Below the pieces are notes generated by a model. The model was not told where the DNA came from. It did not search any database and saw only the letters and a list, made by a program, of their open reading frames with translations. DNA of 64,000 nt from Jiangella alba (GTDB lineage Bacteria > Actinomycetota > Actinomycetes > Jiangellales > Jiangellaceae), in assembly GCF_900106035.1 (NCBI RefSeq), contig NZ_FNUC01000004.1, forward strand, positions 2,418,001-2,482,000. Direction: 5' to 3'. This document shows positions 22,347 to 28,571 of the stretch, in pieces; positions within the stretch are counted from its first letter, which is position 1, and every line of letters begins with the position of its first letter. The translations under genes and the position numbers were made by a program.

Positions 22347-22490
22347 GTGCGGCTCCTCTCGCGGGGGCGGTCGTTTGACGCCCGAGTGTGAGCCAGCCCA
22401 CATCGACGTGTCACCGTTGCGTAACTTGAGTACATCGATCGGGTGGGGCCGCCGCGTCCTGGCGGGCGGCGACCTGCGACGATGGCGTAC

Positions 22491-23027
22491 GTGGCAGCCA
22501 CCTCGACTCGCGGCAACCCCTCGCTGGGCGACATCTTTCGCAGCGTGGGGGTACTGGCGGGCGTGATCGCCGCGATCGCGCTCGTGTTCAACCTGCTGAA
22601 CGACCCCGAGCCGCGGCTGCCCGACCCCGTCGACTACCAGCCGGCGCTGGCCGTCGCGCGCGAGGAGTACGCGTACCCCGTCCTCGCGCCCGAGCCCGTG
22701 CCCGACGGCTGGCGCCCCACCAGCGTCGACTTCGCCCAGGAGGAGTCCGGCGACCGCTGGAAGCTGGGCTTCCTCATCGACGAGGGCGACGCGTTCGTCG
22801 GCCTCGAGCAGACCGACGGCGAGATCCAGAGCTACCGCGACGACCGCCTGGCCGACTTCGCCGCCGAAGGCGAGAGCACCATCGACGGCGTCACCTGGGA
22901 ACGCCTCCTCGAGGACGACGACCAGCCCGACCGCGCCCTCGTCCGCGTCGACGGCGGCGCGCTCACCATCGTCCGCGGCACGGTCTCGTACGAGGAGCTC
23001 GAGGACTTCGTGCGGCTGCTGCGCTGA
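22491..23027 (+). CDS. DUF4245 membrane-anchored protein
   Basis: 178 aa. A short N-terminus and one membrane helix (VGVLAGVIAAIALVFNLL) precede an extracytoplasmic domain with the DUF4245 pattern (YPVLAPEPVPDGWRPTSVDF, WKLGFL, FVGLEQTDG, GALTIVRGTVSYEEL). In many actinobacteria this gene sits near xseAB, glpX and fumC, as it roughly does here. The start is uncertain: GTG 22491 has GACGAT 7 nt before it (a weak leaderless -10); ATG 22482 is the alternative. Its last 171 bp region is duplicated downstream at 24305-24475. Confidence 0.82.
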   Translation: MAATSTRGNPSLGDIFRSVGVLAGVIAAIALVFNLLNDPEPRLPDPVDYQPALAVAREEYAYPVLAPEPVPDGWRPTSVDFAQEESGDRWKLGFLIDEGDAFVGLEQTDGEIQSYRDDRLADFAAEGESTIDGVTWERLLEDDDQPDRALVRVDGGALTIVRGTVSYEELEDFVRLLR

Positions 23028-23039
23028 CGCCCGTCACAA
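22869..23039 (+). repeat. 171-bp direct repeat, left copy (3' end of DUF4245 gene)
   Basis: This stretch covers the last 53 codons of the DUF4245 gene plus 12 nt after its stop. It matches 24305-24475 with no gaps and only four base differences that I could find, two of them silent. The two copies flank the AbiF-like gene. Confidence 0.95.
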
Positions 23040-23074
23040 GGCGGCGTGGGACGATCTTCGTCGCTGCCTCGTGC

Positions 23075-23135
23075 TATGCTGATTTCACTACATCCCCCAC
23101 GCCTCTCCACGATGCGCACTTGGGGGATTTTCTCT
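23075..23135 (+). ncRNA. Candidate structured RNA upstream of the AbiF-like gene
   Basis: TATGCT at 23075-23080 is a good -10. About 12 nt later ATCCCCCA (23092-23099) pairs with TGGGGGAT (23121-23128), with an inner CGC/GCG pair and an 11-nt loop, followed by TTTTCTCT. The structure could be a short RNA with its own terminator, or an attenuator for the gene at 23159. AbiF-family genes are known to be preceded by a conserved structured RNA; whether this is one needs a covariance-model search. Confidence 0.4.
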
Positions 23136-23158
23136 GCCCCGGGCCAGGAAGGGCGCCG

Positions 23159-24208
23159 ATGTCCCGACCACTGCGGCCACGCGGCTCGCTCCATTACGAT
23201 AAGCCGTCGTTGAGTCTCGACAAGCTCGTCGGCCGCCTCGCCGAGCGCGGTCTGAAGATCCCCGATGAAGGCAGAGCCGCCAGGTATCTCCGCCACATCG
23301 GCTACTACCGGCTCTCGCCGTACACGATCCCCTTCCAGCAAAACCGTTCTGACCACCTTCTCCGCGAGGGAATCGTGTTCGATGACGTGCTTGACCTCTA
23401 TGCCTTCGACCGCGCTCTGCGGTTGCTCGTCATCGACGCGCTGGAGCGGGTCGAAGTCGCCGTGCGTGCGGCACTCACTGATCACATGTCGACGACATAC
23501 GACGATCCGCACTGGTACATGGGTGCGGCGCACTTCCGACACCGCGGCAAGCACGAAGGTCTCTTGCGGATCGTCCGGGAGACCTCGGAAGCACGTCTCA
23601 GCGGAGCGCCGGAGCTGACGGGCACATCATCGGAGGCAGAGCATGATGAGCACGAGCTGAAGGGTGGCGAGCTCACATCGGACGACGTTGCTCCGATCCA
23701 TCGCTCGGCCCTCGAGCACTACCTGACGACTTATGGCACGCCCGACCTGCCGCCCTCGTGGCTCATGATGGAGACCCTGACCCTCGGGCAGCTGACCAGC
23801 ATGTACCGCAACCTGGACCGACGGTCCGATAGGACCGCGGTCGCGACGAGCATCGGCCTGACCGCGCCGGTGCTGGAGTCCTGGATGCAGACCTACGTCC
23901 GCGTCCGCAACATATGCGCGCACCACGGTCGGCTGTGGAACGTCGGCCTCGGCGTCTACCCCGCGATCCCGACCTCGCCTGCGATTTCATGGCTGCGGGG
24001 GACGGACGCTCTGCCGGAACGATCCCGGAAGCGCCTCTACCCGGTGCTGGTGTCGCTGCAAGCTGTGCTCGCAACCGTGTCTCCGCGCAGTAGCTGGACA
24101 CGCCGACTCCACGAGCTGGTGAGCACACGTCCACCGATGAACCTCGCGGGTATGGGTATCCCAGCGAACTGGGCAGACGATGACTTTTGGAGTCGGCAGA
24201 TCCGGTAA
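23159..24208 (+). CDS. Abi_2 (AbiF/AbiD-like) HEPN abortive-infection protein
   Basis: 349 aa. It matches the Abi_2 pattern: SLHYDKPSLSLDKLVGRLAERG, YLRHIGYYRLSPYTIPF, YAFDRALRLLVIDALERVEVAVRAAL and late RVRNICAHHGRLWN. The last holds the HEPN RNase motif R-x4-H at R250 and H255. Members act as toxins or RNases in phage abortive infection. ATG 23159 has AGGAAGG 5 nt upstream. The gene has lower GC than its neighbours and lies alone between duplicated gene ends, pointing to transfer. No partner protein is encoded beside it, so any antitoxin may be the leader RNA. Confidence 0.88.
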   Translation: MSRPLRPRGSLHYDKPSLSLDKLVGRLAERGLKIPDEGRAARYLRHIGYYRLSPYTIPFQQNRSDHLLREGIVFDDVLDLYAFDRALRLLVIDALERVEVAVRAALTDHMSTTYDDPHWYMGAAHFRHRGKHEGLLRIVRETSEARLSGAPELTGTSSEAEHDEHELKGGELTSDDVAPIHRSALEHYLTTYGTPDLPPSWLMMETLTLGQLTSMYRNLDRRSDRTAVATSIGLTAPVLESWMQTYVRVRNICAHHGRLWNVGLGVYPAIPTSPAISWLRGTDALPERSRKRLYPVLVSLQAVLATVSPRSSWTRRLHELVSTRPPMNLAGMGIPANWADDDFWSRQIR

Positions 24209-24304
24209 CCGGGACCGGTGTCGGGAGAACAACGGAGCCTGCGGTGTCGGTTCAGGACATCGTTCGCCCCGGAGGGCGAGCCAACACGGTCCGTCGAGGA
24301 CGAC

Positions 24305-24463
24305 GGCGAGAGCACCATCAACGGCGTCACCTGGGAACGCCTCCTCGAGGACGACGACCAGCCCGACCGCGCCCTCGTCCGCGTCGACGGTGGCGCGCTG
24401 ACCATCGTCCGCGGCACGGTCTCGTACGAGGAACTCGAGGACTTCGTGCGGCTGCTGCGCTGA
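24305..24463 (+). pseudogene. Duplicated 3' fragment of the DUF4245 gene
   Basis: It encodes the last ~53 residues of the DUF4245 protein (GESTINGVTWERLLEDDD through VRLLR) with one Asp-to-Asn change, then a stop at 24461. The sequence before 24305 is unrelated to DUF4245. The fragment has no plausible start and is best read as a relic of the insertion event that brought in the AbiF-like gene. Confidence 0.85.
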
Positions 24464-24475
24464 CGCCCGTCACAA
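24305..24475 (+). repeat. 171-bp direct repeat, right copy
   Basis: Partner of 22869-23039. Identity begins at GGCGAGAGCACC and ends at CGTCACAA in both copies; flanking bases differ on both sides. Confidence 0.95.
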
Positions 24476-24503: not shown

Positions 24504-25610
24504 GTGGCGGGCGATGACGGCAGCGGGCCGATCCGGCGGGCCTTGACCGGCCTGCTCGACGCCTGGCTCGATCTCGACCGCGGCAGCGCACCGGCGCTCG
24601 GCCGGGCGCGGGAGCAGGCGGCCGTGGTCGCGCGGGCCGTGGGTCCCAGACATGGGGCGCTGGCCGAGCAGGTGCCCGCGAAGATCGCCCTCGGCGCGTC
24701 GGCGGCCTCGGACGCGCTGGCCGACCTGACTCGGGTGTTCGCCGACGAGGCGGGCGCGTTGGTGTCGCTGCTCACGGGTGTGGCCGGGTCCGTCACCCCG
24801 GCCGCCCTCGGCTCCGGCCCCGGCGCCGTCGTCGACGCCTTCCCGTCCGGCGCCGCGCGCCACTACGTCGCCGACCTCGTCACCGACGCCGCCCATGACC
24901 ACCGGCAGCCGTCGTCTGCCGCCGAGCAGGTGCCCGCCGTCAACGCGATCTCGCTGTCCGTGGCCGCCGGCGTGCGGGCCGCCTTCGACGGATCGGTGGG
25001 CGAGGCCATGCTGGCGATGGTGTGCCACCCCCGCGGCCACGCCGTCCAACTGCACGGCCCGGACGTGCCGGACGAGGCGCTGATGGCCCGGGTCAGCTGG
25101 AAGAAGGACCCCATGGGCCGCACCGACACGAAGAACTCCTGGCGCCGCGACGCCGACGGCACGGTCCACACCAAACACGCGCTCGGCCACGTCGCAGGCA
25201 AGTTCACGACGGTGGAGGCGCTGGTCAAGCCCCTCCGGGCGCTGCTCGCCCACGCCGGCGGCACGATCGAGGGCCTGCACGCCTACCTCGACCGCAACGC
25301 CCCCGCCGGATTCGCGCGGATCTTCGTCGCGGCCGACGACGCCGGTCTGGCACCGGGCGACTCGACCGGCTTCCGCGGCGCCGGCACCTCGACTGCCAGC
25401 ATGGCCGACCATTGGTTCCGGGCCAGGCGCGATGCCATGGCGAGCGGCGGCGGGCCGATGCCGATCGTGCGCACCGACCAGATCGCTGACAACGACGCGC
25501 CCGGGGCTGCGATGATCCTCCGGAAGGTCGACGGAGACTGGATGATGATCACCTGCTATCCCGACAGTGCCCAAGGTGATGAGTTCATGCGGATGGGAGC
25601 CGAGACGTGA
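24504..25610 (+). CDS. Unknown protein, candidate toxin of a toxin-immunity pair
   Basis: 368 aa, not recognised. The first ~180 residues are Ala-rich helices. The second half is a distinct, more polar region (SWKKDPMGRTDTKNSWRRDA, then GKFTTVEALVKPLRALLAHAG) ending in a compact stretch with MADHWFRARRD and DGDWMMITCYPDSA. An end of the 'TxYP' kind, with nearby His and Arg, is reminiscent of BECR-type RNase toxin domains, but this is only a visual resemblance. No signal peptide is seen. GTG 24504 has no good ribosome site and lies 28 nt after the right gene-end repeat, so the 5' end may be truncated. The next gene overlaps its stop by 4 nt. Confidence 0.6.
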   Translation: MAGDDGSGPIRRALTGLLDAWLDLDRGSAPALGRAREQAAVVARAVGPRHGALAEQVPAKIALGASAASDALADLTRVFADEAGALVSLLTGVAGSVTPAALGSGPGAVVDAFPSGAARHYVADLVTDAAHDHRQPSSAAEQVPAVNAISLSVAAGVRAAFDGSVGEAMLAMVCHPRGHAVQLHGPDVPDEALMARVSWKKDPMGRTDTKNSWRRDADGTVHTKHALGHVAGKFTTVEALVKPLRALLAHAGGTIEGLHAYLDRNAPAGFARIFVAADDAGLAPGDSTGFRGAGTSTASMADHWFRARRDAMASGGGPMPIVRTDQIADNDAPGAAMILRKVDGDWMMITCYPDSAQGDEFMRMGAET

Positions 25611-26134
25611 CCGAGCGGACCACCAACTTCAGGCGTTGGTTCGGCAACTGGTTCGCCGGTGTCGACAGCTACCCGGACGGCTACACCGAGGGCTGCGAGA
25701 CAGTCGCCCAGTGGGAGGCGGACGCGGAGCTCGGTGAGAGCTTCGCCGCGTTCAAGGACGAGGTGGCGGCCCACCTCCGTGACTCCTCGCTGCGACCGGT
25801 CGGCACGAGTGAGGCGCAGTGGCTGAACGACGAGTGGTTGCGCAACCTCTGGTACGACCTGTTCGGACCCGAACCGGCCCCGGGCGACCCGTACCCCGTC
25901 CCGGCCGAGGACTGGGGCCACCCGCGCGAGACCCCGTACATCATGCACGCCGTGGGCGAGAGCGACGACGATGCGACCGATGGCGAGCGGGCGTGGCTCG
26001 CGCAGCGTGGGCTGACCCATGCCGGCATCCAGCGCGGCCACCCCTGGCGGAGGACGGCGCCCGAGGGCTACGCGGACCGGCTGGCCCGGCTCACCGCGGA
26101 GGGCAGGCGCACCGCCTACGACGGCGAGGTGTGA
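25607..26134 (+). CDS. Unknown small acidic protein, candidate immunity partner
   Basis: 175 aa, acidic and Trp-rich (FRRWFGNWFAGVDSYPDGY, QWEADAELGESFAAFKDEV, LNDEWLRNLWYDLFG). No membrane helix or known motif was found. GTG 25607 overlaps the preceding stop (GTGA), so the two are translationally coupled. An acidic cytosolic partner directly after a larger polymorphic protein is the usual toxin-immunity arrangement; this is inference from context. Its 3' end overlaps the convergent xseB gene by 19 bp. Confidence 0.6.
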   Translation: MTERTTNFRRWFGNWFAGVDSYPDGYTEGCETVAQWEADAELGESFAAFKDEVAAHLRDSSLRPVGTSEAQWLNDEWLRNLWYDLFGPEPAPGDPYPVPAEDWGHPRETPYIMHAVGESDDDATDGERAWLAQRGLTHAGIQRGHPWRRTAPEGYADRLARLTAEGRRTAYDGEV

Positions 26135-27551: not shown

Positions 27552-27630
27552 GATGGGCACCGTACCCGCTGGCTCCGACTAGATGACCTATTCCAAGTGG
27601 TCGCGCGCGTGTCATGAGCCGGTGACGTGG

Positions 27631-27679
27631 GCGAGGGTGTCCAAGATCAGTTTGTGAGAACAAACCTGGACACCCTCGC
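27631..27679 (+). promoter_or_regulatory. Hairpin masking the transposase start
   Basis: GCGAGGGTGTCCA (27631-27643) pairs with TGGACACCCTCGC (27667-27679), and inside it GTTTGT pairs with ACAAAC around a GAGA loop. The GTG start (27654-27656) lies in the inner stem-loop, so a transcript entering from outside would hide it. Confidence 0.6.
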
Positions 27680-28571
27680 GACTGCACTGTACGTGACGGT
27701 CGATGACCTGTTGATCGATTCTCCGCACCTGGCGCCGTGGCGGCCCAGGGTCGGGATCGAGCCGAGGATCAGCGACGCGGAGTTGGTGACGCTGGCGGTG
27801 ATGCAGGCCCTGCTGGGGTTCACCTCTGAGGCTCGCTGGCTGCGCTACGGACGCGCTCACCTGCGGCATCTGTTCCCATACCTGCCCCAGCAGCCCGGCT
27901 ACAACAAGCGGCTGCGGCGCCTCGGCGCCACGATCGCCCAGCTGGTCGGGGTGCTGGCCCGGGACACGAGCATGTGGACCGATGACGTCTGGGTGGCCGA
28001 TTCCACCCCGGTCGAGTGTGCCCGATCACGGGAGACGGCGCGGCGCTCGGACCTGGCCGGGTGGGCCGAGTACGGCTACTGCGCCTCGCATTCGAGGTTC
28101 TTCTGGGGACTGCGGCTGCACCTGCTGTGCACACTGCACGGCCTGCCGGTCGGGTTCGCCCTGACCGGCGCGAAGGCCGACGAACGCCAGACGCTGCTCG
28201 GGATGCTCGATGCCGACCCCGAGCTCACCGGTCCCGGGCGGGCCGGGCAGATCGTGATCGCGGACAAGAACTACTACGGCCGCGAGTTCGAGACCACCCT
28301 CACCGACGCCGGCGTGGACCTGCTGCGCCCGGCCCGCAAAGGCGAACCCCAGCGGGCCGGGACCGAGTTCTTCAAACCGTTGCGGCAGGTCATCGAGTCG
28401 ATCAACGACACCCTCAAGGGCCAGCTCGATCTCGAACAGCATGGCGGACACACCCCGGCCGGAGTGTGGGTCCGCGTCACTCAACGCATCCTGGCCCTCA
28501 CCGCGGCAATCTGGCACAACGACCACACCGGTCAGGCGACCAAGCGATCCCTCCTGGCCTACGACCACTGA
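27654..28571 (+). CDS. IS982-family transposase
   Basis: 305 aa DDE-type transposase. Typical segments are NLDTLATALYVTVDDLL, RISDAELVTLAVMQALLGF, VWVADSTPVECARSRETARR, AEYGYCASHSRFFWGLRLHL and IADKNYYGREFE, close to actinobacterial IS982 members. GTG 27654 gives the standard N-terminus; an upstream GTG at 27627 would be extra and sits outside the hairpin. The reading frame has no breaks. Confidence 0.92.
   Translation: MRTNLDTLATALYVTVDDLLIDSPHLAPWRPRVGIEPRISDAELVTLAVMQALLGFTSEARWLRYGRAHLRHLFPYLPQQPGYNKRLRRLGATIAQLVGVLARDTSMWTDDVWVADSTPVECARSRETARRSDLAGWAEYGYCASHSRFFWGLRLHLLCTLHGLPVGFALTGAKADERQTLLGMLDADPELTGPGRAGQIVIADKNYYGREFETTLTDAGVDLLRPARKGEPQRAGTEFFKPLRQVIESINDTLKGQLDLEQHGGHTPAGVWVRVTQRILALTAAIWHNDHTGQATKRSLLAYDH

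Follow-up and report, generated by a model that had tools for sequence, protein, structure and literature searches.

A 64,000-nucleotide stretch of the Jiangella alba genome (hereafter the window; the 7.68-Mb genome is labeled G000) contains an AbiF-type defense gene at the 3′ end of a gene for a DUF4245 protein, and this gene end is duplicated on the far side of the defense gene (Table 1). The two copies align over 171 bp without gaps and with exactly four mismatches (at 22884/24320, 22955/24391, 22964/24400 and 22997/24433), and the distal edge of the repeat falls 12 bp beyond the DUF4245 stop codon. Between the copies lies a cassette with a GC content below the 72.3% of the window, a value equally low in 1 of 628 windows of the same size, and an Abi_2 gene preceded by an abiF RNA is the sole gene recognized in it. 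The original prediction, which was made from the letters alone, had described an ungapped repeat with four differences, about 1.27 kb of lower-GC DNA carrying an AbiF-like gene and its leader, and a DUF4245 gene left complete beside a headless second copy. Realignment reproduced the repeat exactly, the leader proved to be the abiF RNA, the Pfam match to DUF4245 is complete, and copy 2 is covered solely by an 81-aa open frame. The predicted lack of a transposase or integrase also held: no relaxase, integrase or other recombinase was recognized between the copies among the open frames or with Pfam and PADLOC. Elsewhere in G000 there are ten matches to the tyrosine integrase profile PF00589.

Table 1. 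Features at the DUF4245 locus, in window coordinates
Feature	Position	Strand	Basis and remarks
Host gene DUF4245 (PF14030), complete	22482..23027	+	Pfam profile match; orthologue in 11/11 congeners
Repeat copy 1 (gene side): final 159 bp of DUF4245 including the stop, plus 12 bp	22869..23039	+	
Inserted cassette, 1265 bp, GC 64.7%	23040..24304	+	Absent at the site in 11/11 congeners
−10-like TATGCT, 5′ of the abiF RNA	23075..23080	+	Similar site in most aligned relatives, by eye; putative promoter
abiF RNA (Rfam RF03085)	23093..23128	+	41.3 bits, cut-off 37; fold z-score −3.85
AbiF/AbiD-type Abi_2 HEPN gene, 349 aa	23159..24208	+	Pfam PF07751, E 5.5e-48; PADLOC model AbiD; RVRNICAHH (Rx4H) motif
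Repeat copy 2: stranded, headless DUF4245 end, joined to native downstream DNA	24305..24475	+	
Two-gene module (368 aa, 175 aa) next to copy 2; native DNA on the right of the insertion	24504..26134	+	
IS982-family transposase, nearest recombinase identified, close upstream of xseA	27627-28571		173.6 bits, cut-off 130

The site is empty elsewhere in the genus. Our genus sample comprised 12 genomes including that of the window, and each of the 11 congeners has a single DUF4245 end with no cassette within 1.5 kb of it, as expected if the insertion took place at a gene 3′ end and kept the gene whole; none of them has this AbiF gene at the site. The two-gene module that follows copy 2 in the window comes directly after DUF4245 in 6 of the 11, and the other 5 run straight into xseB. 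When the flanks of the window are joined at the repeat, the resulting 565 bp align with G010, one of the congeners that has this right flank, from base 1 to base 563 with a single gap of 1 nt, and with the other five over 501–561 bases with small gaps. The original prediction had proposed aligning the two repeats to the empty site. In this comparison, the upstream copy is nearer to 10 of the 11 congeners and the copies tie for one. The downstream copy is therefore the more drifted one, and one of its four differences is present in none of the 11. Among the coding bases common to both copies, none is absent from all congeners, and at the level of the genus neither copy appears foreign.

Nor is the repeat a sequence scattered over unrelated sites, since the only full matches to it in the whole genome are these two copies, the next best match being 55 bp at 77%. 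Direct repeats of some kind are no rarity in this genome: there are 47 pairs of at least 60 bits, spaced 0.3–5 kb apart, in 344 kb of G000 that include the window. Four of the pairs lie in the window, where the 171-bp pair is the strongest. A single 20-kb stretch (L166, G000:C3:500001-520000) holds 34 of the 47.

The same layout recurs at other AbiF loci. A scan of GTDB species genomes yielded 79 loci, of which the 40 actinobacterial ones (L068–L107) form our main count; L108–L110 were scanned but stand outside it (at L110, a 44-bp repeat was found some 2.5 kb beyond the AbiF gene), and L111–L146 were left out of the scan. At each locus, the upstream flank was compared with the downstream flank for direct repeats scoring 60 bits or more within 2.5 kb. 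Such a repeat brackets AbiF in 7 of the 40 loci (window excluded). The corresponding figure for sham positions in these loci is 4 of 149 (p 0.002), and the sham matches all come from L071 and L077, where they are long, weakly similar stretches (69–73%). The 40 loci contain 14 direct-repeat pairs of at least 60 bits and 0.3–5 kb spacing, half of which (7/14) bracket AbiF. Six of the seven bracketing repeats are gene 3′ ends, namely those of a 2-hydroxyacid dehydrogenase (L081), an integrase-family gene, itself fragmentary (L082), mutM (L083), a histidine kinase (L086, where the repeat is 98% identical and stops short of the stop codon), a thiamine-binding protein (L090, from Sinomonas) and a CGNR zinc-finger protein (L092). 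The seventh, at L087, is instead a 5′ end, from a gene that by eye resembles a serine recombinase. L084, with a repeat at the 3′ end of a SpoU methylase gene, scores 35.6 bits and lies outside the 7 of 40; we treat it as a gene-end case because the ends read alike in translation, by eye. With L084 and the window there are nine bracketed loci, eight of which have a protein-gene 3′ end with a headless copy opposite, and 8 of 41 AbiF loci, the window included, thus sit between duplicated 3′ ends of different genes. A more distant AbiF, at L155, has a 99-bp bracketing repeat of unassigned nature.

The units are alike in size and in where they stop. Cassette length between the copies is 1144–1365 bp in 8 of the 10 bracketed loci (L155 included) and about 3 kb in L082 and L083. 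In the four cases in which the copies are at least 90% identical and the stop codon lies within the repeat, the distal edge falls 4–12 bp beyond the stop. Compared with random placement, this clustering has a combined p of 0.009 (0.016 with L090), in a small test that assumes uniform placement and excludes L086, where the repeat ends before the stop. No terminal sequence common to the edges of the ten bracketed loci was found by eye, and in this respect the cassette is unlike a transposon with defined ends. A shared inverted repeat at the junctions was considered and rejected: AATGTCA/TGACATT occurs about 21 bp apart in a mutM island (described below) and CCGTCGA/TCGACGG 20 bp apart in the window, and none was seen by eye in L081, L086 or L090.

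The Sinomonas locus allows a second look at an empty site. Its thiamine-binding gene is present in 26 of the 28 genomes searched (its own included), and the cassette is found in none of the 14 other loci examined (0/14). In 11 of these 14, the same native neighbor lies within about 130 bp of the gene (75–87% identical); the match is weak in L248 and missing in two. The two copies at L090 have three non-coding mismatches, and the nearest relative matches the far copy at all three (by eye), so the far copy looks native.

A search for integrases covered the genomes of L081, L084, L086, L087, L090 and L092. The L081 genome is one chromosome, and its nearest integrase match lies more than 300 kb from the AbiF locus, provided that the coordinates of our locus and of the record agree; the contig that carries L090 (C14) has no integrase match. 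In Pseudonocardia kujensis (L079, 3736-4503), the start of a gene adjoining AbiF resembles a tyrosine integrase by eye. Two further candidates for bracketing, L156 and L157, were rejected, as no copy of a tRNA end was found beyond AbiF; there the abiF RNA lies 75 nt behind tRNA-Met and 92 nt behind tRNA-Ala, respectively, the HEPN motif was not found in L156, and L157 has an interrupted AbiF reading frame.

Gene-end bracketing is not peculiar to AbiF. As a control, the same bracket test was applied to AbiEii loci, taking the 30 best-scoring ones from 296 genomes of the class and not a random draw. L208, where the flanks overlap at a contig edge, was dropped, reducing the raw 5/30 to 4/29. The AbiF side of this comparison consisted of 39 loci with a limit of 1.5 kb, including the window and skipping L088 and L099 for their short flanks, and gave 6/39 (p = 1). 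Since AbiEii loci are bracketed about as often, a special link of the layout to AbiF was rejected. At L209, copies of a tRNA-Ser end surround AbiE and an integrase-like gene (24.8 bits to PF00589, slightly below the cut-off) over 2.6 kb, and at L226 (1345-3108), AbiE by itself occupies 1651 bp between tRNA-Met and a 38-bp duplicate of the tRNA 3′ end, with no recognized integrase. The repeat at L225 takes in part of AbiEi itself, and that at L227 was named only by eye. Gene-end mini-islands, with and without an integrase, may be a general form of carriage for small defense operons in actinobacteria.

Exact junctions come from larger islands at mutM, a gene that adjoins AbiF in 6 of the 40 loci (L073, L074, L080, L081, L083 and L096); L106 carries a remnant of a mutM end. 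Microbacterium luticocti (L073, G751) and Metallococcus carri (L074, G752), which the tree labels place in different families, have in common a 43.8-kb stretch with 99.7% identity. In this island (L193–L195 and L199–L201), AbiF lies at the mutM edge, and the remainder, as read from protein starts, is probably rich in metal-resistance genes. At one junction, the last ~130 bp of mutM are identical in both hosts. At the far junction, the island ends at an identical point in both, beyond which each host has a diverged mutM end of its own (164 bp in one and 176 bp in the other, counted to the stop). Such exact junctions are the signature of a site-specific integration event in which the end of the gene is replaced. 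No integrase was found in these islands: there is no PF00589 match, and a serine-recombinase motif matched once per island, implausibly and at one shared position. Recombinases of other types lay outside the profile search. In Arsenicicoccus (G753; L196–L198, C5:83.7-123.8 kb), a 40-kb stretch contains four mutM ends. One of these follows an AbiF gene that has lost most of its reading frame to an internal deletion, and we read the array as tandem accretion.

How, then, did the cassette reach DUF4245? The reading that we favor, with a probability of roughly 0.5, is that it is a mini-island resembling a cis-mobilizable element (CIME), with attachment-type repeats of the target 3′ end, that encodes no recombinase and depends for its movement on one from elsewhere. 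A circle would carry the cassette together with a DUF4245 3′ end, and a recombinase supplied in trans would join it to the chromosomal DUF4245 end. The gene would take the end brought by the circle and so stay whole, and its former end, stranded on the far side, would decay. The two 171-bp repeats are accordingly candidate attachment sites. The original prediction had likened the locus to cargo that restores the end of its target gene without a visible enzyme, moving by recombination or by the machinery of another element. The gene-end layout, its recurrence and the exchange of mutM ends speak for that view, and movement in one of these two ways is still an inference; other cargo between DUF4245 ends, which the prediction had proposed to look for, was not seen among 393 genomes of the class.

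As CIMEs are defined in PMC5704250, they have attL/attR-type direct repeats at a gene end, lack genes for integration and transfer and leave the target gene whole. The window likewise has direct repeats at a gene end, which would serve as attachment sites, no recognized gene of these kinds between them, and a whole target gene. Tandem accretion, as in the mutM array of G753, is a further point of resemblance. The CIMEs described there, however, are decayed integrative and conjugative elements or integrative and mobilizable elements (IMEs), whereas the window has a single 1.27-kb defense cassette, and no parent element was found for the DUF4245 site. An IME would bring its own integrase and relaxase, neither of which was recognized between the repeats. 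IMEs are found in the 3′ ends of protein genes and tRNAs, such as SGI1 in trmE, mobilizable genomic islands (MGIs) in yicC and GIsul2 in guaA, but these are listed with a tyrosine recombinase, whereas none was recognized in the cassette and no PF00589 match lies in the two large mutM islands. Among titles and the openings of abstracts on related islands and gene-end insertions, none reported the pattern seen here, which is weak evidence, as many journals lie outside the coverage.

Several observations weigh against this reading. Copy 1, which should have come with the circle, has no coding base that is absent from all 11 congeners and is not visibly foreign. Beyond the stop, both copies carry an identical 12 bp that none of the congeners shows in this form. 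Copy 1 differs from copy 2 at 4/159 coding positions and from its nearest congener, G010, also at 4/159, so the donor may or may not have been a sister species. A class-wide search with the final 53 residues of DUF4245 found matches in 103 of 393 genomes, and two close ends in G000 only, so that a second island at a DUF4245 end was not found. We know of no integrase that recognizes DUF4245, and 171 bp is long for an attachment core. No bracketing repeat was recognized at 32 of the 40 relatives. L087 repeats a gene 5′ end, L155 repeats a stretch of unassigned nature, and the repeat of L086 stops before the stop codon. The right edges of the minimal cassettes lie 4–227 bp past the AbiF stop with no common sequence seen, and at L090, the gene-side copy departs from the nearest relative at all three non-coding mismatches, an outcome that simple duplication and later drift would also produce.

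Since no foreign trait is visible in either copy, two other explanations are serious rivals for the window itself. It is possible, if on balance unlikely, that homologous recombination placed the cassette there. A circular or plasmid piece bearing, besides the cassette, a DUF4245 end of the same or a near species could have entered by a single crossover within the 171 bp, or strains could exchange the locus by means of homology in its flanks, the model described for minimal mobile elements in Neisseria. In the latter, small gene cassettes are swapped at a fixed site without a mobility gene, and a duplicated gene end is not known to be part of their description. Near-identity over 171 bp should suffice for a crossover and no recombinase would be needed; moreover, the 12 bp past the stop are the same in both copies, and a plasmid of Rhodococcus carries a close AbiF relative (72%). 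What such recombination leaves unexplained is the repeated joining of the cassette to different gene ends with edges near the stop, and the mutM islands have exact common junctions where spread-out crossovers would be expected.

Doubtful too, and about as likely, is an insertion arising from repair, in which the cassette was captured at a staggered break or by template switching, the host block was duplicated, and the insertions that survived were those that kept the gene whole. The lack of a foreign look in either window copy would fit, as would cassette edges without a common sequence and the Sinomonas locus, where the duplicated block takes in native intergenic DNA to within 3 bp of the next start codon. 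Against such an origin stand the clustering of edges at the stop, the recurrence of the same kind of unit at similar size, the tRNA ends that form some AbiE repeats, and the mutM islands, which put foreign sequence in place of the gene end. That the cassette is instead the immobile remnant of a larger integrative element at DUF4245, deleted down to AbiF and two attachment sites, is improbable: although CIMEs are described as arising by such decay (accessible portion of PMC5704250), and AbiF does border the gene side of large mutM islands and occurs, internally deleted, in the G753 array, eight cassettes of near-equal content at different sites would need repeated near-complete deletion, and no leftover of a larger element was recognized in the window cassette.

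Whatever moved it, the gene-end AbiF mini-island is a real, recurrent and unusually small form of a known kind. Defense genes turn over fast, yet many stand alone without a visible vehicle; to judge from the comparable layouts found at other genes, small defense systems may be able to spread without an insertion enzyme of their own. Repeats of a neighboring gene's end mark the edges of such integrase-free mini-islands, which are easily missed by island searches based on integrases, and the DUF4245 locus supplies defined candidate attachment sites. A bolder proposal, to which we would give little credence at present, is that single AbiF and AbiE modules of 1.1–1.7 kb circulate in actinobacteria as self-contained cargo, taking the 3′ end of their last neighbor as the next landing site, thereby changing targets without a recombinase of their own.

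The cassette has the parts of a known RNA-regulated system, an Abi_2 protein with an Rx4H motif and an abiF RNA upstream. The HEPN motif of the RVRNICAHH type is also found in 38 of the 40 AbiF relatives, the abiF RNA was matched in 12 of 12 relatives scanned, and the core of the RNA is present in 40 of 41 loci including the window. A solved structure titled Abi family protein (8vz6) is related to the window AbiF. In Clostridioides difficile, the abiF RNA neutralizes the AbiF toxin by direct contact, in the manner of type III toxin-antitoxin systems (PMC12373285, accessible text). With the RNA, the HEPN motif and the promoter-like site all present, the window AbiF is likely an RNA-restrained ribonuclease; its activity as a toxin and its role in phage defense would follow the same pattern, with the RNA holding the HEPN toxin in check and the toxin set free when a phage infects or the locus is lost. 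The C. difficile pair, RCd22-AbiFCd, resembles the window in that an Abi_2 gene is preceded by an abiF RNA. It differs in having two RNA motifs, where one was detected here, and in lying in a prophage lysis module and not at a chromosomal gene end, and the activity of the window AbiF is a predicted one. The main text of PMC12373285 makes no mention of an integrase, direct repeats, insertion or att sites, the word inserted, or actinobacteria/Actinomycetota.

A protein search of 396 genomes of the phylum, at E values up to 1e-40, returned the window AbiF only and no other close relative. More distant Abi_2 relatives (32–47% identity in the matched parts) occur at other sites in 5 of 22 genomes of the family, G000 included. 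No stretch of the viral contigs fitted the close-family patterns, and AbiF relatives appear in 18 phage records, every one below 60% identity.

Finally, the gap between DUF4245 and xseB looks like a small hotspot. The two-gene module that occupies it next to the cassette has no significant Pfam match (the best is YnaL, E 0.061), and in the congeners that have this module, a GTCACA motif lies 3′ of the DUF4245 stop.

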